Virus record (IMG/VR): IMGVR_UViG_3300036715_000989
Coordinates: 1 to 22,464 of that record
Reading direction: 5' to 3' (one strand)
Origin: a virus
Length of the DNA stretch: 22,464 bases
The notes under the pieces were generated by a model, which was given only the letters and a program-made list of their open reading frames with translations, was not told the origin of the DNA and did no database searches. The translations under genes and the position numbers were made by a program. Shown piece by piece: positions 3,351 to 22,249 of the stretch. Numbering within the stretch: the stretch's first letter is position 1; each line of letters begins with the position of its first letter.

Positions 3351-4025
3351 ATGAGAAATAATCGTGATAACACCCCGTCTCATATTCAACCCAAGACTGT
3401 CAATCAAGATCGTTTGTTGAGAGCAATTACTCGTTCTCAGCTGACAATCGCCATTGGCCCTGCGGGTGTTGGTAAGACATGGTGTGCTGTTAACGCTGCT
3501 GTTAATCTCTTGTTGTCAGGTCAAGCTCGACAACTTGTTTTTACTCGAACCAATGCTCCTACTGGTCGATCCCTAGGCTTCTTTCCCGGAACTGTAACTG
3601 AGAAACTAGAACCCTGGTTGGCCCCCATGATTGGAGTAGCTCGGTCTCGTCTAGGAGCAACCAACTACGATTCAAAGGTCCACTCAGGGTCTATTGTCTA
3701 TGTCCCTCTCGAGACTATTCGCGGTACCTCGTTCGAGGACTCTGTTGTTCTTGTTGATGAAGCCCAGAATCTAGACTACGAGGAAGTCAAGGCTGTGACC
3801 ACCCGCATCGGTGAAGGGTCAAGGATGGTGTTGATGGGTGACCCCATGCAACGTGACATTCGTGACTCGGGACTGTCCGAGTTTGAGGGGCTGGTCCACC
3901 ACTACGGACTCGAGACTGAAATTCCTATTATTAAATTCACTGTTGACGATATCGTTCGTTCCGACCTAGTAGCAACTCTGGTCCGAACCTTCATGCTACA
4001 CGAAGGAGCATCCCATGGCACGTAA
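3351..4025 (+). CDS. phoH: PhoH-like ATPase
   Basis: A 224-residue P-loop ATPase of the PhoH family, common in phages and of uncertain role (suggested links to RNA metabolism and phosphate stress). Walker A is GPAGVGKT at residues 36-43, followed by the family's basic/Gly-Phe-Phe-Pro-Gly stretch (LGFFPG, 75-80), IRGTSFED (123-130), Walker B VVLVDEAQN (132-140) and the GDPMQRD motif (163-169). These are all the expected PhoH landmarks. The ribosome site AGAGGA is about 5 bases before the ATG. It is the first gene of the rightward cluster and overlaps the next gene by 11 bases. It is not a terminase: the PhoH signature motifs are specific. Confidence 0.93.
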   Translation: MRNNRDNTPSHIQPKTVNQDRLLRAITRSQLTIAIGPAGVGKTWCAVNAAVNLLLSGQARQLVFTRTNAPTGRSLGFFPGTVTEKLEPWLAPMIGVARSRLGATNYDSKVHSGSIVYVPLETIRGTSFEDSVVLVDEAQNLDYEEVKAVTTRIGEGSRMVLMGDPMQRDIRDSGLSEFEGLVHHYGLETEIPIIKFTVDDIVRSDLVATLVRTFMLHEGASHGT

Positions 4026-4317
4026 CACCTATGTACACCAATTGTCCAGTTCGACCTGGACCGAGTTGACTAACGCTGACTGCACCAAGGCGTCCATGAC
4101 CTGGCTGTCCGGTAATCAAGCCGGAGTTATTCTTGTTGTCACTACGACTGCAACCCCTCCCGCGGCTTCTGACCTTGGTCATGTGTTTCGCCCGACTGAC
4201 CCTCCACTGCACGGTCGACTGTTGACTGACCTTAACCCTGCTGTGGTTGGCAAGCGAGTGTTTGCACGAACGTTGACTGGGTCAGCCGCTGTAGTCTGGT
4301 CGGATGACTCGCTGTGA
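4015..4317 (+). CDS. small hypothetical protein, probable virion component
   Basis: A 100-residue protein rich in Thr, Ser and Val, with the composition of an all-beta domain and no signal peptide. The ribosome site AAGGAG is 6 bases before the ATG, within the end of phoH. It overlaps the portal gene start (GTGA at 4314-4317), so the two are translationally coupled, which suggests a head-related role such as a decoration or portal-associated protein. That is inferred from position and composition only; no family recognised. Confidence 0.75.
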   Translation: MARNTYVHQLSSSTWTELTNADCTKASMTWLSGNQAGVILVVTTTATPPAASDLGHVFRPTDPPLHGRLLTDLNPAVVGKRVFARTLTGSAAVVWSDDSL

Positions 4318-5882
4318 GCCTAGTTTTTCCAACCGGTCGGGTGACCGTGGGGACGCCCTGCTACGAGTACGAGTCCATGGAGTCCCTGTGGCGTCGTTCT
4401 CGTGCAGTCGTCAATGGCGAGCTGTACGCCAAGGCCCATGATGAGATCCTAGATACAGTCAACTATACAAACTTGCTTGTCCCGTTCAGCCCTCGAATGT
4501 CTCCCGAACACTACCGTTGGTATGTTTCCGAGGCCGAGCTGCCGGGGCTAGTGTCTCAGTATGCCAAGATCCTTGCTGGAGGGCTGTTGAGGAAGAAACC
4601 TCAGCTAGAGTTACCCGCGTCAGTCCCAGCAGACGCCGAGGACTGGCTGCGTAATCGGTTCACCGAGGACGGTCGGTCGTTGTTTGCGTTTCTGGACGCA
4701 GCGATCTGGGAAGAGTTGGTGACATCCCGAGGCTGGGTGTCAATTGACTTTCCTGTGGTCGAGGACTATGTTGGACTGTCGTCCCAGGACCGTGATCAAC
4801 TGTTCCCGTACCCTGTGTTGTGGCGAGCCGAGGACGTGATTAACTGGCAGACCACTCGTGACCCGGTCACGTCCAAGGTCCGGTTGTCTCGTGTTGTGTT
4901 TCGCTACCTGGTCAAGGACTATGACCCGGCTGTGTCGGTGTTCCACCCTGTGTTGAAGGTTGTTGCTGCTGACCATTACCTCGACGAGTCTGGTAACTAC
5001 ACTGTTGATACCTATCATCGTGTGGGAACCACTGTTGCTGACGTTCAATCGGGAACACTGCAGATTCCAGGGTCAGTGTCTGGCTCCGATGCCTGGCAGC
5101 TGGTGTCTCAGTCGCAACCCGTGATGGGGGGTCAGTTGGTCAACTACTTGCCTATTTACCCGCTGTCCGGGGAAGTGTCTCTCGAGATTCCTTTCTTGAC
5201 TCCTGTCATCGACCGGGAAGTGGCGTTGTACAACAAGTTGTCTCGTCGTAACCATCTGATGTACGGGGCGTCAACGTTTACTCCTGTGGTGTTCTCGGAC
5301 ATGTCGAACGAGGACTTTCAGGGTATTGTGTCCGCTGGGCTGGGTACCTGGATCAAGCTGAATCGTGAAGACAAGATCGATAGTGTTGCCACTCCCACGG
5401 CAGCGCTGTCTGACATGGAGCGATCCATTGAATCAGCTGTGGCGGACATGATGCGCATGGGGCTACGGTTGTTGTCTCCTGAGTCTGGTCACGGGTCTGG
5501 AGCTGACTCGGGTATTGCTCTCGAGATTCGTAACTCGAGTGTGACGTCTCAGTTGGCTGTGATCAACATGAAGGTCTCGACGACAATGAAGTACGTCATT
5601 GAGACTATGCTTCGTTGGAAATATGGTACTGAGCTGGACATGACAGATCTTGACTTCAAGTTGTCGAGTGACTTTAACCCTGCGCCTCTTGGTGCTGAGT
5701 GGGCGAGACTTGCTACAGAATGGTATCAGAACAGATTGATTCCCCGGTCTGTGTGGCTCGCAATTGCTAAGCAACACGATATCATACCTTCCGACTACTC
5801 CGATGATGACGGGGTGGCCGAAATTCAACAAGACGCCCTGCTTCCTGCCAACGAAAGAGTGTCAATTCAGGAGAATCAATGA
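4314..5882 (+). CDS. portal protein (DUF4055-like)
   Basis: A 522-residue protein. The N-terminal pattern, with YTNLLVPFSPRMSPEHYRWY followed by a stretch on repeated recruitment of a helix (AELPGLVSQYAKILAGGLLRKKP), and the later IALEIRNSSVTSQLAVINMK region, match portal proteins of the DUF4055 type. Portals form the dodecameric ring at one head vertex through which DNA is packaged and leaves. Length agrees with the family. The start is GTG, overlapping the previous stop. Its position before the MuF gene and the capsid module supports the call. The C-terminus is acidic and Gln-rich. The following gene overlaps by ATGA. Confidence 0.85.
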   Translation: MSLVFPTGRVTVGTPCYEYESMESLWRRSRAVVNGELYAKAHDEILDTVNYTNLLVPFSPRMSPEHYRWYVSEAELPGLVSQYAKILAGGLLRKKPQLELPASVPADAEDWLRNRFTEDGRSLFAFLDAAIWEELVTSRGWVSIDFPVVEDYVGLSSQDRDQLFPYPVLWRAEDVINWQTTRDPVTSKVRLSRVVFRYLVKDYDPAVSVFHPVLKVVAADHYLDESGNYTVDTYHRVGTTVADVQSGTLQIPGSVSGSDAWQLVSQSQPVMGGQLVNYLPIYPLSGEVSLEIPFLTPVIDREVALYNKLSRRNHLMYGASTFTPVVFSDMSNEDFQGIVSAGLGTWIKLNREDKIDSVATPTAALSDMERSIESAVADMMRMGLRLLSPESGHGSGADSGIALEIRNSSVTSQLAVINMKVSTTMKYVIETMLRWKYGTELDMTDLDFKLSSDFNPAPLGAEWARLATEWYQNRLIPRSVWLAIAKQHDIIPSDYSDDDGVAEIQQDALLPANERVSIQENQ

Positions 5883-6082: not shown

Positions 6083-7372
6083 ATGTCTACAATTCTAATC
6101 AAGGACGCAAATGGAGCGTTTACGACAGCAGCCAAGGCCGACTCGACTGGTCAGAAGCTTGCAGCAGACTCGTTGCCTGTTGTACTGGCCAGTGATGTCG
6201 AGTCCATGACCACCACCAGCCGGGTCTCGTATCGTGAAGCCTTCATGACGCTTGACCCTGCTCGGTGGGTAACTGTTGCAACGGGAGCAGGCCAAGCAGT
6301 GACTGTTAACGGTACAGCTAACTCTAGCCGTTACCTGAACATTGCTGCAGGAACTACTGCCGGGTCTGAGACCGTGCTGCTGTCAGTTGACACGTTTACC
6401 ATGCCATTGAAGTTCAGTGTTGCTGTGTCAGCGTCTCAGCGCATTGCCAACACCACCTTCCACGTAGAGTTGGTCTCTGTTGACTCTACCGGTGCTGTGG
6501 AGACAGACACTACTTTTCCTGGAACTGTGACTGAGAACGCAACTAACCTGTTTGGTTATCGCTGGACAGGTACTGCTGTGGCTGTTGCTAACTACGTGAC
6601 TCGTGGCTATGGCATTAGCGAGTACGTCTCGTCGAACTTCAACTTTGGTACCACTGCCGCCACGGGTACAACCCCTGACTTCATCCACAGCTGGATGTAT
6701 GAAATTGTGGCTGACACTGACCAGGTTGTGTTTACTAGTAAGTTTGTTGACGCGGCTACTACTAGTTTTGTTGGTGGTAAACGTACTGGTGGTATTCCTG
6801 ACCCGACCAAGCTGTACAAGATTCGTATTCGCTGTATCAACGGGTCAACTGCTCCCGCGAGCTCTACCAGCTGGCGAGTTCATGCTATCAGCGTCCAGGA
6901 CGACTACCGTATGTCGGTTGACTTTAGCCGCTACTCTGGTCGTTCAGACCTTAGTGACAGTCTGCCTGTTCAGGTAACTGCGTCCGCCCTGGCTCCTGCC
7001 TCGCTTCGAGTTGAAGCTGTAGCTGGTGGGTTGACGTCGACCTTCAGCTTGTTTTCATCGTTGGCTACAACTAACCCCAACTCTGTAAAGGCTAGCGCTG
7101 GTCGGCTGTACACTATCGACTGTTACAACGCGTCGGCTACTCGTCGTTACCTAAAGATCTACAACAAGGCGTCTGCTCCTACTGTTGGCACTGATAGCCC
7201 TGTATTGACCTTTGTGTTGCCCCCTAACTCTATGTTTATTCGAGACTTCTCATCGATTGGGTTGTATCTCGGTACAGGTATCGCCTTTGGTATCTCAGGC
7301 GGAGTTGTTGACACTGATACTACAGCCATTGCTGCCGCAGACATCCTAGGATTGAATCTCATCTACGCATAA
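6083..7372 (+). CDS. probable virion structural protein
   Basis: A 429-residue protein rich in Thr, Ser, Ala and Val with almost no long helices, as in beta-rich capsid or fibre proteins. Its opening, with KADSTGQKLAADSLPVVLASD at residues 18-38, carries the Ser-Leu-Pro-Val-Val-Leu-Ala-Ser-Asp motif found at the start of many phage structural proteins. The ribosome site AAGGAG is 6 bases before the ATG. Lying between the portal and the MuF gene, it may be a head fibre, decoration or other virion-surface protein. The exact role cannot be told from the sequence. Confidence 0.7.
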   Translation: MSTILIKDANGAFTTAAKADSTGQKLAADSLPVVLASDVESMTTTSRVSYREAFMTLDPARWVTVATGAGQAVTVNGTANSSRYLNIAAGTTAGSETVLLSVDTFTMPLKFSVAVSASQRIANTTFHVELVSVDSTGAVETDTTFPGTVTENATNLFGYRWTGTAVAVANYVTRGYGISEYVSSNFNFGTTAATGTTPDFIHSWMYEIVADTDQVVFTSKFVDAATTSFVGGKRTGGIPDPTKLYKIRIRCINGSTAPASSTSWRVHAISVQDDYRMSVDFSRYSGRSDLSDSLPVQVTASALAPASLRVEAVAGGLTSTFSLFSSLATTNPNSVKASAGRLYTIDCYNASATRRYLKIYNKASAPTVGTDSPVLTFVLPPNSMFIRDFSSIGLYLGTGIAFGISGGVVDTDTTAIAAADILGLNLIYA

Positions 7373-7382
7373 GGAACCACCT

Positions 7383-10300
7383 ATGTCTATTAACCAGGAC
7401 TTGTTTGACCGACAAGTTGAACATCTTATCCTGACGAGACGCTACCAAGACGCAGCAAAACTTTTGATCGAACGAGAAGCTGCAGCCCACCGTGGCTTCT
7501 TGTCTCGACTGTTTCGTACTAAACCCCCTTCGCTGTCTCTCGACCTAGAGCGTGAAGTTACTCGCCACGTACAACAGCTTTATGGCATTGGTCGGTCAGC
7601 AATTGACGACTTTGTGGGGGCTGAACTTGACTTTCAAGTTAACAGTCTGTCTCGCTCTGTTCGTGACTTCTTCAAGGTCCAGTCGGTTAATCGTGGTGAG
7701 TTAGCTCGTGACATTACCCGAACCCCTCTTCGGTTGTCTAACACGTCCACTGAGCACGGTACTTTGTTCGAGAACCTTAACCGTGCAGGGTCGGACGAGC
7801 TGACTCGTATCAACGCCAGAGTACGGCGTGGCATTGTGGCAGGCACCACCGAACGTGAGTTGATCGACGACATTATCCGTACTAGTCGGTTGACCGAGGC
7901 TCAGGCCAAGACCTTGGTGGTCACTAACTTTACTCAGGCAGAGTCACTCATAAAGCGTCGTGTAGCTCAGGCTAACAGTGACCTGATTGCTGGGCTTGTC
8001 TTCACCGCTATCCTTGACTCTCGCACTAGCTCTATTTGTGCAACTACAGACGGGTTGGTTCAGACTCCTGACAACCTCAAGGTAGTACCCCCTCTGCACT
8101 GGAACTGTCGCTCTACCCTAGTGTTGACTGTCAAGGCTAAGTCTGTGTTGCGCTCGGTACAGTCTCCCTGGTTGAACCATACTGCTCTTGAGGCTGTTGA
8201 CGAGACCCGACTGAACGGTCTCGCCCCTGCCAAGGAGTCCTTTACTGACTGGCTTCGTCGTCAGTCCATGTCTACTAAGCTGTCTCACCTAGGAACAGAG
8301 GAACGAGTAGGACTGTTTGAGCGTGGTACCTTGTCAATGTCTGACTTCTTCACAGCTCGTGGCAATCCGATTAGCCTGTCTGTGTTGCGTGTCAAGGACA
8401 ACCTTGCTACGTTCTTCGGGCTAGAGGGTACAGCTACAGTCGCTCCTACTCTTGACGGTCTAGTGTCTGTGTCTCGCCCGTTTCAGCTAGTACGGTCAAC
8501 CCGTGCAGCAGACGAGCTGACAAAGATGATTATCACAGATACTACCAATGCAGGACAACCCCTGTCTCTTGTGGACTACCGGGGTACGTCTCTTGCGGGT
8601 AAACGGGGAGTTCGCTTTGCGTCAACTAATGAGTTTGACCCTCGTAACTCTACCTTCGATCCCTTCACGGGAGAAGTTCGCTCTTCGTACTACTACAACC
8701 CTGACTTTACTCTGTATCGTGAACGACTCGACTACATGCAGCAGTCTAAGCTGCTTGATCGTCGACAAAAAGCCTTCATTGAGAACTTTGTTGAGTCGCT
8801 GACCGATCGTGTGTCAGTCAATCAACAGTCTGTTGTCACAGAAACTCTTCGTGTGGTGTTTGAACGCTACCAGAAGACTCCTGTTCCCTGGGAGGACTTC
8901 CAGGCTACCTTCCGAGCAGAGACTAACTACTCTGTGGTCAACGTTTCTCGACTGTTGGACCGCCGGTCTCGGGCTCGTGACAGCCTGTTCCTTGGGTTCC
9001 GTGGTGATCCATCACAACCTAGTGTACAAATTGGTGGTGAGACTATCTCGATCGAAGACTTGCTCGCTAACCGTCGGTCTTATGAGTTGTATGCTCAGGA
9101 CTGGACAGCTGACCAGGGTACTGCTCTTGCTCGTCGCATGTACTACACAGGCCGATCGCCCTGGAAGGCGTACTTTTTTGACCAGCCTGATAAACCTAAG
9201 TCTATTGTTGACCGAGTCAAGGACTCTTTCTTCAAGCGTACTATTCGGTCTGTGTTCTATCGTAACAACCCCCTCGAATTCTATACTCGTTATGGCAAGA
9301 CGCCTCCTGCAATCAAGAAGATTATACTCGATGAGATCAAGGGCTTCTTTACACCAGGTTGGTACAAGGACCTTAGAGCTGTGTACGAAGAAGGGTTCAT
9401 GGACTTTGCTACTCGCACAATCAAGGAAAAGTATCAATCGATCATCGACCTGGAGTTTCTTCGTTTCCACTTGTGGCGTGACTTCTTGAAGACTAACCTT
9501 CGTGATCTAGAGGGTCGGTCTGTGTCTAACCTCGCTCGTATGTTCCGCATTGTTGCAGAGGGCCGAACCACTGACTACGACTCGCTGGCAATTAGTCTCG
9601 GTCGTGAAGTTGCTGATTCCTGGGGTGACATTGTTCCTTACCTAGGACATAGCCTGCAAGACTATCATGAAGAAGGGTCTAAGATCCTTGAGTACATGCG
9701 ATCCCAGGGGTTGATCCGTATCAACAGCCGAGGGGTAACTCGACGAGCTGTCATCGACCTTGAAACTAACCGAGCGTCAGGAGCCTGGAAAGACACTGTT
9801 TCTCGTGAAGTTCAAGTTCTTGACCCAGACATGCTACGACTGCAGTCAAACAATCGTCGTCTAGAGCTAGCTAATCGCTTCGGCATCGACCGCCCAGAGA
9901 ACCGCTACGTTGTTGTTCCTGGTCGAAAGACCTATGTTAACTCACGGGGGAAAGACTCAGGCATCAGCCTAATTACCCGGTCAGCTCAGGCTAACTTTGA
10001 TGCAAAGCAAATTGACGGTGACTTCTCGGACATGTTAAACCATACCATGTCACTGGAATATGAAGTAGACCCTGAGTTTACAAGTTTCATGGACGATCTT
10101 GTCCGCTTCAAAGACAATCGCGGTGCAGCCGCTCACTACGACGAGCTGAACACCTTTAGAGAGGAGATTATTAGACGTGGTGACCAAGGTTATGGACTCA
10201 TGGAAGCCCTTCGCTACTATCGCGCCACAGGTCGTCGTTTCCGTGCAATGGCTAGGATTGATGGACGGGGTCGTGTATACTACAATGGCTACCTCACTCC

Positions 10301-11897
10301 TACTGGCGGAGAGGTTGTTCGCCCTTTCCTGAACTCAGCCGAAGCTACAGCCATGACACCCGAGGGGCTGCATCAGATTCGTATTCAGCTCGCTGCTGTA
10401 ATCGGGCCTGCCACAGAGGCCTTGACTGACGCTGGGCGGTTGCAGATTTTCCGAGACAACGAGGAGGCAATTCTTCGTGTTGGTCGGTTGATCTCCGAGA
10501 CTACTCAACGAGATCGTCGACTGCGTGAGTTCCTTGACGACCCCTTTATCCAATCCATCGACGGGGAAGAGGTTGCCAAGATTGCTAGATTTAGTCTCGA
10601 GTACTATCGTATCCACCAGGCTACAGGTGGTCGGTTCGATGCAGTCAGCCTAGCGGGCTACAAGACTAAGTTGATGGGTGAAGCTGACGCTAGTGCTAGC
10701 GGGTTGCAGGTCATCTCGTTGTCAACGGGAAACCGACTGGCAGCGTTGACGAGCAATGTGTTGCCAACAACGCGTAAGATGCGGATCTATGACCTCGTTG
10801 CTCAAGACGTGGTTGCTGACCCCCGCTTCCAGCAACTAATGGACGATCTAGGATTGAAGTTGACCTGGGAAGACCTGTCAAAGGCGTCTAAGTACCAGGT
10901 CATGATTGCCTTCTATGGTGCTGGACAAACAGGGCAAACTGCTCGTGTGGCTCTAGAGCTAGCAAAGGTGTTGCGTAAAAAAGACATTCTTGTTACCACT
11001 CGGGCTGAATTTCTGGCTATCACGAAGGAAATTGACAAGAAAGCAAAGGAAGCCGAGGCTCTTGGCGCTCTCGAAACTAAGGTAGACCTCTTAGCTATAA
11101 AGAAAGAGTTGCTCGAGATCATCAACACAGGAGACGCTGCTCAGGCGTCAGCTATTCTCGCCGAGGCTGAAGAAATTCACCCCGCAGTGGCTGACTTAGT
11201 TCGTAAGTACTCGAACAATCGCAACGTAGCTCTAGGTCCCGATCACTTCCGTGAAATTGCTAAGCTGATGTCTGAAAAACTAGCCGAGCGTGCTCCGGTG
11301 ACTCAAACCTACATCGACTTCTGGAAGCGTGTGGGGGCAGACTTTGCTCGTACAACCAAGAAAGTTCGTATTCCGTGGGTTACCTTTGACGGCAAGAAGC
11401 TGTATCAAGACTATCGACCAAAGATCCAACAAGAGATTCGGTTCTATGACCCAGCGTCTCGTCGCTACGTCCGTAACATCTATCAGATGGACGCGGAAGA
11501 TGGCAAACTACTAGGCAAGGCCGAAATCGGTGATGTTCGACTGGGCTTCGGCGTTAACGGCAACCATGCTCTTGACGCGTCCCTGGTTCGTGGCTACCAC
11601 CTCGAGGGTCGAAAACTCAACATGGGTACGTCGACTATTCACGATGCTATCTTCCAGAACATCAACGAGTTGCCCGAGGGCATCAACGCCATGTTCCGGG
11701 TCTATGCTCGTGCTCGTGAGTCTAACAACATTCGCAAGACAATGGATGCGCTGTTGGCTGACGGGTTGCCCCGCGAATTGTACAACTCGTACCTAGCCGA
11801 AGCTGAACGACTTGGGTTTTTCGACAAAGGCTTTACTCCCGAAGAAATTCTGGCTCCACTGAAACCTGGCTTCGATCGCTATGGTTTTGGTCCGTAA
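7383..11897 (+). CDS. MuF head-morphogenesis domain fused to a T7/N4-type single-subunit RNA polymerase
   Basis: A 1504-residue protein with two recognisable parts. Residues ~60-255 are a MuF (SPP1 gp7-like) domain: helical lead, then FTAILDSRTSSICATTDG (207-224) and PPLHWNCRST (236-245), the family's signature with Asp, Cys, His and Cys. Residues ~940-1504 hold all core motifs of single-subunit RNA polymerases: DGRGRVYYNGYLTPTGG (960-976; T7 equivalent DWRGRVYA), motif A with catalytic Asp1102 (ADASASGLQ), motif B with Lys1170 and Tyr1178-Gly1179 at the same 8-residue spacing as T7 Lys631/Tyr639, WVTFDGKKLYQDYRPK (1332-1347; T7 HWVTPDG), and motif C His1420-Asp1421. The C-terminus GFGP lies where T7 ends FAFA. 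Residues 255-940 are unassigned and may form the polymerase N-terminal part. No frameshift is seen. Neighbouring portal and structural genes suggest it is packaged in the virion and injected; that is inference. Confidence 0.92.
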   Translation: MSINQDLFDRQVEHLILTRRYQDAAKLLIEREAAAHRGFLSRLFRTKPPSLSLDLEREVTRHVQQLYGIGRSAIDDFVGAELDFQVNSLSRSVRDFFKVQSVNRGELARDITRTPLRLSNTSTEHGTLFENLNRAGSDELTRINARVRRGIVAGTTERELIDDIIRTSRLTEAQAKTLVVTNFTQAESLIKRRVAQANSDLIAGLVFTAILDSRTSSICATTDGLVQTPDNLKVVPPLHWNCRSTLVLTVKAKSVLRSVQSPWLNHTALEAVDETRLNGLAPAKESFTDWLRRQSMSTKLSHLGTEERVGLFERGTLSMSDFFTARGNPISLSVLRVKDNLATFFGLEGTATVAPTLDGLVSVSRPFQLVRSTRAADELTKMIITDTTNAGQPLSLVDYRGTSLAGKRGVRFASTNEFDPRNSTFDPFTGEVRSSYYYNPDFTLYRERLDYMQQSKLLDRRQKAFIENFVESLTDRVSVNQQSVVTETLRVVFERYQKTPVPWEDFQATFRAETNYSVVNVSRLLDRRSRARDSLFLGFRGDPSQPSVQIGGETISIEDLLANRRSYELYAQDWTADQGTALARRMYYTGRSPWKAYFFDQPDKPKSIVDRVKDSFFKRTIRSVFYRNNPLEFYTRYGKTPPAIKKIILDEIKGFFTPGWYKDLRAVYEEGFMDFATRTIKEKYQSIIDLEFLRFHLWRDFLKTNLRDLEGRSVSNLARMFRIVAEGRTTDYDSLAISLGREVADSWGDIVPYLGHSLQDYHEEGSKILEYMRSQGLIRINSRGVTRRAVIDLETNRASGAWKDTVSREVQVLDPDMLRLQSNNRRLELANRFGIDRPENRYVVVPGRKTYVNSRGKDSGISLITRSAQANFDAKQIDGDFSDMLNHTMSLEYEVDPEFTSFMDDLVRFKDNRGAAAHYDELNTFREEIIRRGDQGYGLMEALRYYRATGRRFRAMARIDGRGRVYYNGYLTPTGGEVVRPFLNSAEATAMTPEGLHQIRIQLAAVIGPATEALTDAGRLQIFRDNEEAILRVGRLISETTQRDRRLREFLDDPFIQSIDGEEVAKIARFSLEYYRIHQATGGRFDAVSLAGYKTKLMGEADASASGLQVISLSTGNRLAALTSNVLPTTRKMRIYDLVAQDVVADPRFQQLMDDLGLKLTWEDLSKASKYQVMIAFYGAGQTGQTARVALELAKVLRKKDILVTTRAEFLAITKEIDKKAKEAEALGALETKVDLLAIKKELLEIINTGDAAQASAILAEAEEIHPAVADLVRKYSNNRNVALGPDHFREIAKLMSEKLAERAPVTQTYIDFWKRVGADFARTTKKVRIPWVTFDGKKLYQDYRPKIQQEIRFYDPASRRYVRNIYQMDAEDGKLLGKAEIGDVRLGFGVNGNHALDASLVRGYHLEGRKLNMGTSTIHDAIFQNINELPEGINAMFRVYARARESNNIRKTMDALLADGLPRELYNSYLAEAERLGFFDKGFTPEEILAPLKPGFDRYGFGP
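11087..11104 (+). repeat. intragenic copy of the CTATAAAG element
   Basis: Eighteen bases identical to the left part of the elements at 3267 and 16450 (CCTCTTAGCTATAAAG followed by AA), here inside the polymerase gene, encoding LLAIKK at about residues 1236-1241. The region is an Ala/Glu/Lys-rich, probably helical stretch between motifs B and C. It may be a chance match or an internal promoter for the tail genes downstream. Confidence 0.4.
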
Positions 11898-16694: not shown

Positions 16695-17045
16695 ATGTCT
16701 ATTGAACTTAAAATTAAATCTAAAAGCCTTTCAGCTGAAGCCTCGATTATTCGCATAGAAGAAAGACGAGCTCGTGCTGCACGTAAGACTGAGCTGCTCA
16801 CCAGTCTTCACCTTCATCGTGTCACTGTTGTCCGGTGGGAAGCTAGAGCTACCTATCTTGCAAGAGCTTACCTGGCTGGTCAATCCTACTCGACGGTAGA
16901 AGCCAGTACTAAGCACTGTAAAGAAAATGAATTTTGGTCACGAGTCTTTCCTCGTATCGTCACAATGGTGAATCGATATGGGTTGATTGTTTCAAAAGAA
17001 CAAGTGAAGAACTGGATCAACACGAGAAGCGCGGTAGAGCAGTAA
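16695..17045 (+). CDS. conserved hypothetical phage protein
   Basis: A 116-residue, basic, mainly helical protein. The N-terminal part is rich in Arg, Lys and Glu (IIRIEERRARAARKTELL); the C-terminal part contains RATYLARAYLAGQSYSTVE and a helix ending in a Tyr-Gly turn. The Ala-x-x-Leu-Ala-x-Ala-Tyr-Leu-x-Gly-x-x-Tyr-x-x-Val/Ile-Glu pattern is familiar from short uncharacterised phage proteins. AGGAG lies about 7 bases before the ATG. Its last 18 bases overlap the following tRNA gene, whose D-loop holds its stop codon. Confidence 0.75.
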   Translation: MSIELKIKSKSLSAEASIIRIEERRARAARKTELLTSLHLHRVTVVRWEARATYLARAYLAGQSYSTVEASTKHCKENEFWSRVFPRIVTMVNRYGLIVSKEQVKNWINTRSAVEQ

Positions 17046-17103
17046 GTAGCTCGGCAGACTCATACTCTGCAGGTCGAGGGTGCAAGTCCTTCCCGCGCAA
17101 CCA
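17028..17103 (+). tRNA. tRNA-Met (CAT), initiator-like features
   Basis: A complete 76-base cloverleaf: acceptor AGCGCGG/CCGCGCA, D stem GAGC/GCTC, anticodon stem GCAGA/TCTGC with loop CTCATAC (anticodon CAT), variable AGGTC, T stem GAGGG/CCTTC with loop TGCAAGT, discriminator A and encoded CCA. The first pair (1-72) is A-A, unpaired, and position 11-24 is A-T, both features of bacterial initiator tRNA; the anticodon stem lacks the three G-C pairs of true initiators. T55 is replaced by G. It overlaps the end of the gene at 16695-17045. Confidence 0.9.
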
Positions 17104-18077: not shown

Positions 18078-18746
18078 ATGACTGAAGACACTGATGATAA
18101 CCTCGATGATGGGGTTGACAATGAGAATTCTGGAGAAGCCGCCACTGGTGGTGAACGCTCCGAGGAATTTAACCGCATGGTTGAAGAAGCCGCTAACGCC
18201 AAACTGGCGCGTATGAAGGCCAACCAAGATGCGATGAGTAAAAAGCTTGAAGCTGAGACGAAGGCTCGTGTTCGTGCTGAGAAAGCTGCTGCTGATGTTC
18301 AGCGAGCTGCCCTCAAGGCCGATGGAAAAGAGCTTGAAGCTGCCAACATGCGAATTGCTGAACTAGAAGAAGAGTTGAAAATGACTTCAACGAAACTAGT
18401 GTCAGTTACGCGAGATCGTGAACTTGAGACTGCTCTCAGTTCGCTCGAATTCCGTACTAACTTTGCCAAGATCAGCGCTACGGACCTGATCGCAAAAGAT
18501 CTGATTCAAGATACTGACGGTGCCTGGGTGCACAAGTCTGGTGCCTCGATTCAAGACTACATTAAAACTCTTCCTAAGAACGATGAGTTTCGAGATACCT
18601 TCCTTAAGTCGAAGGATAACCAAGGTACTGGTGCCCCTACTAACAAGACAACTGCTAAAGATAAAGCTCCCAAGTCTTTCATCGGAATGAGTTCCGAAGA
18701 ACTACTGGCCTGGGCGGCTAAACAGACTGCTTTGTCTGGTAATTAA
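18078..18746 (+). CDS. capsid scaffolding protein
   Basis: A 222-residue, highly charged protein. The N-terminal 40 residues are acidic; a long coiled coil runs from about residue 30 to 115 (EEAANAKLARMKANQ; EAANMRIAELEEEL); the C-terminal part has the Lys-rich linker and small helix typical of phage scaffolds. Lying directly upstream of the major capsid gene, it fits a scaffold that directs procapsid assembly and leaves before packaging. AAAGGA is about 8 bases before the ATG. No protease motif is seen, so removal must involve another factor or simple exit. Confidence 0.85.
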   Translation: MTEDTDDNLDDGVDNENSGEAATGGERSEEFNRMVEEAANAKLARMKANQDAMSKKLEAETKARVRAEKAAADVQRAALKADGKELEAANMRIAELEEELKMTSTKLVSVTRDRELETALSSLEFRTNFAKISATDLIAKDLIQDTDGAWVHKSGASIQDYIKTLPKNDEFRDTFLKSKDNQGTGAPTNKTTAKDKAPKSFIGMSSEELLAWAAKQTALSGN

Positions 18747-18784: not shown

Positions 18785-19879
18785 ATGGCTATTAACCACA
18801 CTCTTTTTCAGAACGTGGCTCTCGCAATTTCTGCCTACGCTCAAGAGCGCTGGACGCAAGAGCAACGCATTAACTCCACGGGCCTTGTGACTTCCGGTAA
18901 CGGCATTGACACGACCGGGGAATCCTTCATCGGTCAGCTCCGCTGGTTCAAACCAGTGCAGGGCGTCTTTAACCAGCCCGTAATCGGTACGGCTACTGCT
19001 GGGTCCTACTCGACCATGTCGACCTCGATCCTGAACTACATCAAGAACGTTCGTACGCTCGGTGTGCAGGAAGAAAACATTCAATCGATCATCAGCCGCC
19101 AAGAAGGTATTCCCTACGTGGCTGGCCAGTTCGCTCAAAACCGCGCTCAGGACGAACACGCTGCTGTTCTGTCTACGCTCAAGGGTGTTGCTGCGTACGA
19201 GAAGTCGATTGCTAGTGGTGGTGGTATCACTACGTTCACCTCGGTGCCCTCGGCTACTGTTGGTGCCTTCGTAGACCTTAACGCTGCTGGCGAATTCGGT
19301 GCTGTTGTGGCGTCTGCTCCCACGGCTCGCAAACTGATCGATAGCTCGGTCAAGGGTGCTGACCGCGGTGCTCGCCTGTTCCGCGCCATGGGTATGTTCT
19401 GGAAAGACTACGAACCGGACTACCTGTACATGATTACGTCCCCCGCCGTGCTCGCCGACCTGCGTGAAGCCAACCTTATCGACCTGGACAAAATCCGTGA
19501 CGGTAACCTGGACTTCCAAACGATCTTCAACGGCAAGTTCCGTCTTGTTGTGTCGCGCGCAGACCAAGGTGACAACTCCGGTGGTAACGTCAACACCTAC
19601 TCCACCAAGACGACCTTCCTGGTCCAACCGGGTGCTATCTCGTTCAATGAAGTTGCGGTTCCGACTCCGACTGAAATTCAACGTGATGCTCGCTCGTATG
19701 GTGGTGGTGGTACGACTGAACTGTGGTACCGTTATGGCTTCGTCTCTCACCCGATGGGCTACAACTGGGCAGGTGCATCGAACGCCTTCGCAACGAACGC
19801 TCTCCTGGGCACCGCTGCTTCGTGGACGCGTGTTGTTGACCCGCTGAACCTCAAAATTCTCCCCATCTTCCACGGCTAA
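18785..19879 (+). CDS. major capsid protein
   Basis: A 364-residue protein following the scaffold. Segments such as QPVIGTATAGSYSTMSTSIL and a late YRYGFVSHPMGYNW region fit phage coat proteins that are probably of the HK97 fold (inferred). Codon use is strikingly different from neighbours, with many ACG, TCG and CGC codons, and GC is higher, as expected for the most abundant product. The strong bias also opens a long false frame on the other strand. The protein begins MAINHTLFQN and has no sign of a cleaved propeptide that I can define. Confidence 0.88.
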   Translation: MAINHTLFQNVALAISAYAQERWTQEQRINSTGLVTSGNGIDTTGESFIGQLRWFKPVQGVFNQPVIGTATAGSYSTMSTSILNYIKNVRTLGVQEENIQSIISRQEGIPYVAGQFAQNRAQDEHAAVLSTLKGVAAYEKSIASGGGITTFTSVPSATVGAFVDLNAAGEFGAVVASAPTARKLIDSSVKGADRGARLFRAMGMFWKDYEPDYLYMITSPAVLADLREANLIDLDKIRDGNLDFQTIFNGKFRLVVSRADQGDNSGGNVNTYSTKTTFLVQPGAISFNEVAVPTPTEIQRDARSYGGGGTTELWYRYGFVSHPMGYNWAGASNAFATNALLGTAASWTRVVDPLNLKILPIFHG

Positions 19880-19891
19880 TGAGGTTCATTG

Positions 19892-20380
19892 ATGACGCTA
19901 ACTCTTTTTACAAATACTTTCTTGGTTGACGCCACCCCCTGGATCGGCACTGACCCTGAATGGATCGCTGCAACTGTAGCTGAACAAGAGCAGGCGTTGA
20001 TCAATGCGACGAGAGTCCTCGACGACACGACTTGGCTTGGGTACGCGGTTTCGCCTACTCAAGTCTTGTCCTGGCCTCGTGCCTCTTTTACCTACTATGA
20101 TTCAAGTCTAGCCCTGCTTGTAACCACCGACAGCCTGACAGTTCCTACCAGACTCTCCAAGGCTACCGCCTTTCTCGCACTTCACTATCTTCGTTATCCT
20201 AGCGCTATTCAAGGCTATGACGCGAACTATGACGAGTTGACTGTCGGTCCAATTACACTGAAAAACACTAATGCTACAAGCGACCCTGGCCGTGTCCCTC
20301 TGATACCCAGGCAAGTTTCTAATCTTATTGCACCCCTCACAACCAACTCCTCAGAGCTACTCTGGTGGAGGGCTAACTGA
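19892..20380 (+). CDS. head-tail connector (head completion-type protein)
   Basis: A 162-residue protein. The frame begins at TTG 19889 but ATG 19892 is preferred (GAGG about 8 bases upstream). The N-terminal helix AEQEQALINATRVLDDTTWLG followed by LSWPR is a pattern found in the adaptor proteins that sit under the portal (DnaT-like/gp6-type head completion proteins). Position right after the capsid gene supports this. The stop overlaps the next start (TGATG). Confidence 0.8.
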   Translation: MTLTLFTNTFLVDATPWIGTDPEWIAATVAEQEQALINATRVLDDTTWLGYAVSPTQVLSWPRASFTYYDSSLALLVTTDSLTVPTRLSKATAFLALHYLRYPSAIQGYDANYDELTVGPITLKNTNATSDPGRVPLIPRQVSNLIAPLTTNSSELLWWRAN

Positions 20381-20715
20381 TGAGTCTTAGCACTACGATT
20401 GAAGCAGCAGTAGAAACAGTATTCAAGCAGCTAGACAACCTCGCTGTGGAAGTAACTCTTGTAAACTCTAGCTCTAACGCCTTTAACTTTGCTCTTGGTG
20501 AACCTGTTGTCCAGGAAACCACTGTGAACACCAAGGCGTTAGTCCTTGAGACCAAGTTAGAAACTGGTAAATCTTTTTACCAAAAGCTCCTACTTAGAAA
20601 AGCTATCTTTGAAACTTCCTTGTATGACTCGATTATTGTGAACTCTGTTACCTACAGAGTAAAGTGTATTGAGGTCTACGAGGGGGCTGTTATCCTGGAA
20701 GTGCAAGGTGAGTAA
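20380..20715 (+). CDS. head closure / joining protein
   Basis: A 111-residue alpha/beta protein: N-terminal helix (TTIEAAVETVFKQL) followed by a run of strands with VYEGAVILEVQGE at the end. GGAGG about 9 bases upstream serves as ribosome site and the stop overlaps the next ATG (TAATG). By order (connector, this gene, terminator, tail tube) it is probably the head closure or joining protein that seals the head and meets the tail; sequence alone does not identify it. Confidence 0.65.
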   Translation: MSLSTTIEAAVETVFKQLDNLAVEVTLVNSSSNAFNFALGEPVVQETTVNTKALVLETKLETGKSFYQKLLLRKAIFETSLYDSIIVNSVTYRVKCIEVYEGAVILEVQGE

Positions 20716-21101
20716 TGTATGGTGACATTATTACTTACGTCTACAACCTGGTCAACAGTCTGCAACTACAACAGTCAATCTATCCTGAAGACTTTGTAGG
20801 TAAAAAATCAGAGGCCCCTTTTCTAAAGGTGTCAATTCTTCTACCAAGGAAGCAATTGATTGACTACACCCATAACCAAGAAATTCGAGGTATGGTTGTT
20901 TTCCAAATCTATACAAAGTCCGGACAAGGACAAGTGCCAGCAGCAACCATTGCAGATAAGTTGGACCAAACCTTCCAGAGTAAGACACTAGGCGCTCTAC
21001 AATTCACAGCAAGCTCGTTGAATTATATGGGACTAGACGCTTCAGACAACTCTTTGTCGAGAACTGATTACTCAATTCCCTTCATTTTCTTCGGAGTATA
21101 A
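20715..21101 (+). CDS. tail terminator protein (DUF4128-like)
   Basis: A 128-residue protein with N-terminal helix, then beta strands and a central helix (TIADKLDQTFQSK), ending in SIPFIFFGV. The order of elements (ITYVYNLVNSLQL; FLKVSILLPRKQ; GMVVFQIYTKSGQGQ; Asp-Lys-Leu-Asp-Gln) fits phage tail terminator proteins of the DUF4128 type, which cap the growing tail tube and fix its junction with the head. Position immediately before the tail tube genes supports this. Confidence 0.8.
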   Translation: MYGDIITYVYNLVNSLQLQQSIYPEDFVGKKSEAPFLKVSILLPRKQLIDYTHNQEIRGMVVFQIYTKSGQGQVPAATIADKLDQTFQSKTLGALQFTASSLNYMGLDASDNSLSRTDYSIPFIFFGV

Positions 21102-21102
21102 A

Positions 21103-21666
21103 ATGGCTCATATTACTGCAATTACCGCAGCTTATCACTCTGTGATGAGCGTTGCTCGAACCGCTGTTCCTGGCGGTACGCTCACTTCTACTGTTCTTCA
21201 AGGTCTCTTTACGGGTCTGACGACTAACACCTACCTTTCCTTTGACAACGTTCGTGACTTCCCAACCCTGGGCTCGACCGCTAACATTGTCAAGGTTCCT
21301 GTTTACGGCTCTAGCCGCACCTACTCGATTGGTGCTCAGGGCGACGCTCCTGACTACTCGGTCAAGGTCAACTTTGTTCCCACGAACTGGGTTGCCACGG
21401 GTGTTAGCTTCATGGGCGCTGGTACGGGTAACTTTGGTGACGCTGTTAGTGACAACGTTTCCAAGGTGTTCCAGTTCACCATGATGAACCAAAAACCCAC
21501 CAACTATAACATGGTTGCAGGTGGTATTGGTACTGTGTTGAACACCCAGTTCTATTTTATCGGTCGTATCGAATCCTACCAAGTTACGCCCGCTCGCGAT
21601 GACGCTGTGACTGCTGACGTTCAGTTGTCTGTTCAGTCGGAACTGCTCGGGCCGTTTACGATCTAA
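21103..21666 (+). CDS. major tail tube protein
   Basis: A 187-residue beta-rich protein. GGAG is about 6-7 bases before the ATG. Its codon use is biased toward ACG, GGC and GCT in the same manner as the major capsid gene, suggesting very high expression, as expected for the tube of a long tail. A paralogue follows. The pair share NVRDxPTLGSxxNIxKV near residues 48-64 and NTQFYFxGRxE near the C-terminus. The strong bias opens a false antisense frame. Confidence 0.85.
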   Translation: MAHITAITAAYHSVMSVARTAVPGGTLTSTVLQGLFTGLTTNTYLSFDNVRDFPTLGSTANIVKVPVYGSSRTYSIGAQGDAPDYSVKVNFVPTNWVATGVSFMGAGTGNFGDAVSDNVSKVFQFTMMNQKPTNYNMVAGGIGTVLNTQFYFIGRIESYQVTPARDDAVTADVQLSVQSELLGPFTI

Positions 21667-21667
21667 C

Positions 21668-22249
21668 ATGGGTAACCTAAACTCTATTCAATCAACTCAG
21701 TACGCCGTACTGTTGGTGTCTAGGCAATCAGTTCCCGCCGTCCTTAGTGCAGCAAATTGCAGAGCAGCCTTTGCTACTGCAGCTGACTTTGTCAGTATTG
21801 ATAACGTTCGTGACATGCCCACTCTCGGTAGTCAAGACAATATTATCAAGGTAGCCCAATACAATAGCAAGTCCACTATTCAGGCAAACGTTCAAGGTGA
21901 TCTTGAAGCTGTTGACGTGGTGGTTAACTATGACCCTAGCCTCTGGCTGGTTAATGGTAACTCCTTTGCTACTACGGGTACGCTAATGGACGCAGTTAAT
22001 GACGGTACTTCTAAGCTGTTCATGGTAGCCATGTTGAGTGGTTTGCCTCCGGCTTATGTTACTTCAGCCTCAGTCCCCAACATCGGTGGTACTCTCACCA
22101 ACATTGTAAAGAATACTCAGTTCTACTTTGTTGGTCGCCTTGAGGCCATTACCTACACTCCCATGAGAGACGACGTTGTCACCGCTACGATCAATCTTAG
22201 CGTTCAATCGGACCTCATTGGACCCACTAGCACCAACCCCGGTGTTTAA
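21668..22249 (+). CDS. second tail tube-like protein (paralogue)
   Basis: A 193-residue protein clearly homologous to the preceding tail tube protein: NVRDMPTLGSQDNIIKV matches NVRDFPTLGSTANIVKV, NTQFYFVGRLE matches NTQFYFIGRIE, and SVQSDLIGP matches SVQSELLGP. The N- and C-terminal ends differ. Its codon use is ordinary, and there is no clear ribosome site before the ATG, which begins one base after the previous stop, so it is likely made in smaller amounts by coupling. It may form part of the tube, a distal-tail ring or a decorated tip. Confidence 0.83.
   Translation: MGNLNSIQSTQYAVLLVSRQSVPAVLSAANCRAAFATAADFVSIDNVRDMPTLGSQDNIIKVAQYNSKSTIQANVQGDLEAVDVVVNYDPSLWLVNGNSFATTGTLMDAVNDGTSKLFMVAMLSGLPPAYVTSASVPNIGGTLTNIVKNTQFYFVGRLEAITYTPMRDDVVTATINLSVQSDLIGPTSTNPGV

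Follow-up and report, generated by a model that had tools for sequence, protein, structure and literature searches.

The window analysed here, a virus contig of 22,464 bases, contains on its plus strand a single open reading frame (positions 7383-11897) that runs unbroken through 1504 codons, as the initial annotation had stated. The frame encodes a MuF head protein fused to a single-subunit RNA polymerase, and it lies within a gene set that is the head module of a long-tailed phage:

3351-4025, PhoH-like ATPase gene, upstream of the portal gene
4314-5882, plus strand, portal protein (phrog_145, E 3.3e-41), which precedes the fusion in relatives
6083-7372, plus strand, 429-aa protein between portal and fusion, with no significant family match
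7383-11897, plus strand, MuF-RNA polymerase fusion CDS, 1504 aa (Pfam and PHROG matches; 96 distinct intact relatives)
17028-17103, tRNA-Met amid the structural genes
18078-18746, plus strand, head scaffolding protein (phrog_206, E 2.6e-6), conserved downstream
18785-19879, plus strand, major head protein (phrog_247, E 8.6e-28)
19889-20380, plus strand, head-tail adaptor Ad1 (phrog_477, E 2.6e-18)
20715-21101, plus strand, tail terminator (phrog_179, E 1.6e-5)
21103-21666, plus strand, major tail protein of long-tailed phage (phrog_158, E 1.4e-5)

A beta-helix/decoration-like protein is also encoded around the fusion in the window. These head-module genes, including the major tail protein, uphold the siphovirus setting proposed initially. 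The adjacent genes at 21103-21666 and 21668-22249 both match phrog_158 and possibly represent a duplicated tail-tube protein.

Full-length homologues (40% identity) were found in the cultured roseophages DSS3_VP1 and DSS3_PM1 (Naomviridae), where GenBank labels them 'minor head protein-like', and also in EBPR siphovirus 1. The wider search for other MuF-RNA polymerase fusions that the initial annotation had suggested was carried out by a profile scan of IMG/VR, in which 494 contigs were found to encode a relative; the best 80 of these 494 were retrieved for study. A second scan, using the EBPR protein as query, added 49 loci from a more distant branch. The resulting alignment comprised 78 intact fusions and 18 members of the EBPR-like branch, that is, 96 distinct intact relatives, which were 28-65% identical and shared the same domain architecture. 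Copies of the fusion in prophages were also sought, and a pattern-based scan of 84,980 genomes returned MuF-only relatives only, an outcome that leaves room for temperate copies. The fusion is carried by a large group of long-tailed bacterial viruses that has hardly been studied.

The neighbourhood common to the relatives consists of a portal gene upstream of the fusion, and scaffold and major capsid protein genes downstream. The portal gene was found at most 4 kb upstream of the fusion in 37 of the 43 testable loci, and about 9 kb upstream in the closest relatives of the window; the major capsid protein was encoded downstream in all testable loci (38 out of 38). In each of the 19 records tested, the fusion was the sole MuF gene detected in the genome, and it therefore fills the MuF role of the virion. 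A PhoH gene upstream of the portal gene was also observed in many relatives, and in DSS3_VP1 a tRNA-Asn gene directly precedes the fusion (L004, 19822-19897).

Modules of the fusion protein

Profile, conservation and structural analyses confirmed that the 1504-aa protein is composed of a MuF module (residue 1 to about 345), a helical segment (about 346-554) and an RNA polymerase (about 555-1504). Along the gene, the modules and their landmarks are as follows:

7383-8417, plus strand, MuF/SPP1 gp7-like portal-associated module, residues 1-345 (phrog_241; MuF-only phage proteins align over residues 1-342)
7806-8120, plus strand, PF04233/TIGR01641 core with the invariant MuF residues (profile matches, alignment of relatives)
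8418-9044, plus strand, family-specific helical linker/adaptor, residues 346-554 (Pfam-negative; conservation bins; model)
9045-11894, plus strand, single-subunit RNA polymerase domain, residues 555-1504 (model, Foldseek, VIA, hhalign)
10260-10274, plus strand, DGRGR at 960-964, equivalent to T7 D421-R425 (DxxGR motif; alignments)
10686-10688, plus strand, motif A Asp1102, equivalent to T7 D537 (alignments)
10890-10919, plus strand, motif B K1170...Y1178-G1179, equivalent to T7 K631...Y639-G640 (alignments; spacing of 8 in both)
11412-11525, plus strand, counterpart of the T7 promoter-specificity loop (T7 739-770), residues 1344-1381 (alignment; strands in the model)
11640-11645, plus strand, motif C His1420-Asp1421, equivalent to T7 H811-D812 (alignments)

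In the N-terminal part, the profile search against MuF gave a match to PF04233 at residues 142-246 (E 5.5e-10), together with matches to TIGR01641 (phageSPP1_gp7; E 1.2e-12), both above cutoff, and to phrog_241 (head morphogenesis; residues 74-342, E 7.5e-47), in keeping with the MuF signature first placed at about residues 207-245. Within this core, residues D212, T215, C219, PP236-237, H239, C242, R243 and S244 were invariant in the 96 intact fusions. The assignment to the MuF family thus combines matches to PF04233 and TIGR01641 with a gene position downstream of the portal within the head operon. The MuF part was modelled with a pLDDT of 80, and the fold search returned no convincing solved structural counterpart; a match to dynamin stalks (VIA Z up to 11.5) looks like a resemblance between helical bundles. 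In the Pfam search, neither family covered the segment at residues 346-554, which is nonetheless strongly conserved among the relatives at about 401-500, as judged from conservation bins.

The C-terminal part matched PF00940 (E 3.9e-6, above the gathering score) and phrog_414 (RNA polymerase; E 2.2e-18). A polymerase is therefore present, as had been claimed, but its domain starts near residue 555 instead of residue 400. In a motif-blind alignment, all tested catalytic residues of T7 RNA polymerase fell in register, at the very positions named initially (DGRGR, D1102, K1170/Y1178-G1179, H1420-D1421), except R627, a residue near the NTP triphosphate that is replaced and not conserved in the fusion polymerase. 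Residues D960, R962, R964, D1102, K1170, Y1178, G1179, H1420 and D1421 were invariant in the 96 relatives, which places the motif match far beyond chance.

To describe the fold, an AlphaFold2 model of residues 305-1504 was built from 41 aligned relatives (pLDDT 76.6, pTM 0.68), with catalytic parts mostly at 80-95. This structure prediction, also proposed in the initial annotation, yielded the T7 fold: the top PDB matches by Foldseek were T7 RNA polymerase (E 8.7e-18) and mitochondrial RNA polymerase, and VIA aligned the model with T7 structure 1s76 at Z 26.8 and an rmsd of 3.2 A over 525 residues. The superposition covered T7 residues 32-882 and residues 558-1502, approximately, of the window protein, the N-terminal domain included. 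A direct phmmer search of the protein against PDB sequences returned nothing relevant; the alignment profile, in turn, did find T7 RNA polymerase there.

The initial description of the enzyme as T7/N4-type stood in its first half only: hhalign gave a probability of 99.4% (E 3.7e-21) against T7-like phage polymerases, versus 0.4% and no significant similarity against N4 virion RNA polymerases, to which the protein is thus not recognisably close. Similarly, VIA aligned the model with the N4 virion polymerase at Z 14.7, versus 26.8 for T7. Maximum likelihood recovered three clades with 100% support each, one of MuF polymerases, one of N4 virion polymerases and one of the second polymerases of the same phages, described below; the deep nodes were weak. 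With PF00940 above its gathering score, the T7 fold in the model, and DxxGR and motifs A, B and C all present, the fusion polymerase is T7-like and is predicted to be a complete T7-fold enzyme. Family profiles, fold and catalytic residues therefore support the initial claim of a MuF protein fused to a complete single-subunit RNA polymerase.

Compared with T7-type polymerases (gp1 of Autographiviridae, mitochondrial RNA polymerase), the fusion polymerase has the whole fold, the DxxGR motif, motifs A, B and C and a specificity-loop counterpart, at about 13-17% identity over aligned residues. However, T7 RNA polymerase is produced early by host RNA polymerase and is a free enzyme, whereas the present one is fused to a head protein. 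N4 gp50 (Schitoviridae) is likewise a large structural-module protein near head genes that carries a single-subunit RNA polymerase, in a phage that makes a second polymerase after infection. It differs in its size (3500 aa), its short-tailed phage and its N-terminal injection and C-terminal encapsidation domains, with no MuF; moreover, two residues present in the fusion polymerase, the D of DxxGR and the H in motif C, are missing from the N4 polymerase. As the fusion polymerase most resembles T7 and mitochondrial enzymes in structure and is far removed from the N4 virion polymerase, the joining of a polymerase to a head protein looks like an invention independent of that of N4.

All three parts of the protein, MuF, middle and polymerase, appear to evolve under constraint, with dN/dS values of about 0.04-0.15 (Nei-Gojobori, close pairs; one pair gave no usable MuF and middle values, and one was saturated). 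Together with the residue invariance, these low values indicate that the fusion is old, intact and selected as one protein. Some EBPR-like fusions (L195, L210, L213, L220) carry about 145 extra residues, in frame, between DxxGR and motif A; these insertions differ in sequence, and Pfam recognises no family in them.

Second polymerase and promoter-like repeats

A second phage polymerase elsewhere in the genome, as in an N4-like cascade, was found in all 14 records of at least 63 kb (in one of them, G004, the contig ends within the fusion). It is a canonical T7-like enzyme of about 720-790 aa, sometimes intron-split. None was seen in EBPR siphovirus 1 (54 kb) and G005 (60 kb), both of which may be incomplete.

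In DSS3_VP1, we identified ten T7-promoter-like repeats with the consensus AATAGGGTGCGTTAAAGAGGGGGA, all on one strand and including a tandem pair located 140-180 bases ahead of the fusion operon's portal gene. About four copies each of a related element, ACCAGGGGACGCTAAAGAGAGATC, were observed in G001 and G002. The repeats form two related T7-promoter-like families, GTGCGTTAAAGAGGGGGA and GGACGCTAAAGAGAGATC (DSS3_VP1, L145-L148; G001 and G002, L132-L139). They are probably promoters read by the second polymerase, in which case the fusion would be made late.

Early promoters were also sought. Perfect N4-style hairpins (stem of at least 7, loop of 3-5) showed no excess in seven relatives; compared with first-order shuffles, they tended instead to be depleted, as seen in several of these genomes (L132-L158). 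No shared early promoter motif was detected in intergenic gaps, where only the presumed second-polymerase promoter stood out, and near the second-polymerase gene of DSS3_VP1, sigma-70 sites were no more frequent than by chance (13 versus 15.8 expected). That neither hairpin promoters nor an early promoter motif was found is the weakest link of the delivery account set out below. Transcription without host polymerase, as proposed initially, draws no support from these promoter searches.

Proposed role of the polymerase at infection

The N-terminal module resembles SPP1 gp7 and Mu gpF in its matches to TIGR01641 and PF04233 and in its position downstream of a portal gene; in SPP1 gp7 and ordinary MuF proteins, however, the chain stops after the head module or continues into other C-terminal domains, and no polymerase on them is described in the literature consulted. 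MuF-toxin/effector fusions (polyvalent proteins; ART, RelA/SpoT, PBECR) similarly bear an enzymatic C-terminal cargo, whereas the cargo of the present fusion is a transcription enzyme. MuF C-terminal toxins are believed to exploit the MuF dock and to reach the cell upon infection, the onset of which SPP1 gp7 itself promotes (PMC6316719); other MuF-fused enzymes are read as delivered likewise (PMC5512222, PMC9503650), and N4-like virion RNA polymerases are stated to occur only in N4-like phages or prophages (PMC5512222).

The MuF-effector literature consulted mentions no MuF-RNA polymerase fusion. None was found in the open full-text literature, a scope outside which the DSS3_VP1 genome paper lies and within which both MuF-effector fusions and N4 virion polymerases are retrieved. 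The paper on EBPR siphovirus 1 mentions neither polymerase nor intron, and a 2025 paper on dU-DNA in DSS3_VP1 does not mention the polymerase. A virion-carried polymerase and the MuF dock are hence known; the searched literature contains no description of the two combined, of the T7-like origin or of the long-tailed lineage, which bears out the novelty claimed initially.

We consider it rather probable that the fusion is an RNA polymerase packaged in the virion, with a head protein as its anchor, and that it acts in an N4-like cascade in a long-tailed phage. The fusion gene would be expressed late, together with the portal and capsid genes; its MuF part would bind the portal and bring a few copies into the procapsid, like SPP1 gp7, and the T7-like polymerase would sit inside the head beside the DNA exit. 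At infection, the protein would leave with or ahead of the DNA, and the delivered polymerase would transcribe the early phage genes, including that of the second, soluble T7-like polymerase. The latter would then read its own promoters, among them those before the portal-MuF-polymerase operon, and transcribe the late genes. We infer packaging, ejection and activity, and delivery with the DNA to start transcription is likely the best explanation; the layout fits it, with one MuF gene, a position in the head operon, a second polymerase and, in DSS3_VP1, late-type repeats. Against delivery, ejection through the siphovirus tail tube would require this protein of about 170 kDa to unfold.

It is unlikely that the delivered polymerase serves mainly to pull in the genome or to make replication primers, and not for early expression. 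The genome entry of T7 is transcription-driven, host RNA polymerase and T7 RNA polymerase pulling the DNA while transcribing, and a polymerase tethered to the portal, as its junction with a portal-binding module would allow, could also reel DNA in as it transcribes. However, the promoter-specificity loop has a complete and conserved counterpart in the fusion, and a transcription cascade accounts more simply for the presence of two polymerases. For the primers, the DnaG-type primase zinc ribbon was not found in five near-complete records, but the search covered the DnaG type alone.

For work inside the cell, these phages already encode a soluble T7-like polymerase, which argues against the view that the fusion polymerase acts late in the producing cell, being packaged only incidentally or cut from MuF before packaging. 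This would suit a gene that belongs to a late operon, and cleavage by prohead proteases is common among phage head proteins; nevertheless, we judge it quite unlikely, as the fusion frame is intact in 96 relatives, the window contains no Shine-Dalgarno-backed internal start for a separate polymerase at residues 240-640, and nothing would keep a late-only enzyme joined to a capsid-targeting module.

Virion-carried single-subunit RNA polymerases are so far known from N4-type short-tailed phages. If delivery is true, bringing one's own polymerase evolved more than once, here by a route other than that of N4, and the cargo of MuF extends from toxins to core gene-expression machinery. It seems probable that a large lineage of lytic, long-tailed phages independently evolved MuF-borne virion transcription, with MuF as a general loading dock and a two-polymerase cascade. 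The Ruegeria pomeroyi phages DSS3_VP1 and DSS3_PM1 make a direct test possible in a cultured system. The question bears on how transcription starts in these dU-DNA phages and raises the problem of getting a large folded enzyme through a narrow tail tube; moreover, the fusions offer a new, divergent family of RNA polymerases.

Conservation of the active site and group I introns

A catalytically dead polymerase domain with a structural or DNA-binding role in the head could be suspected from the strong divergence from T7 and the replaced R627. This is very improbable, given that the equivalents of T7 D421, R425, D537, K631, Y639, G640, H811 and D812 are invariant in 96 proteins and that dN/dS is low in the polymerase part. 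Nor is the fusion an assembly chimera or a misread frame: although the window is a metagenome contig that has no second copy, the same single frame recurs in two cultured phages that were deposited separately and in dozens of independent contigs, relatives that already refute this reading and leave it next to no probability.

In EBPR siphovirus 1 (L005, 22798-23640), an HNH-bearing group I intron interrupts motif B of the fusion gene and separates gp47 from gp49; exon 1 ends in ...NMV and exon 2 begins with TFYG. The intron's match to Rfam RF00028 (E 1.1e-8) falls short of the gathering score. Six relatives of the EBPR-like branch with split fusion genes (L188, L190, L214, L218, L221, L222) contained 16 group I introns above the Rfam gathering score, with breaks near DxxGR, motif B and motif C and up to five exons. 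Group I introns settle in conserved, essential sites, and their presence at the catalytic motifs agrees with a working active site.

The products gp47 and gp49 are annotated as separate proteins, though they are exons of one gene. Group I introns were also found in the second-polymerase genes of three of the four relatives tested (L224, L226, L227); both polymerases of these phages thus attract such introns.
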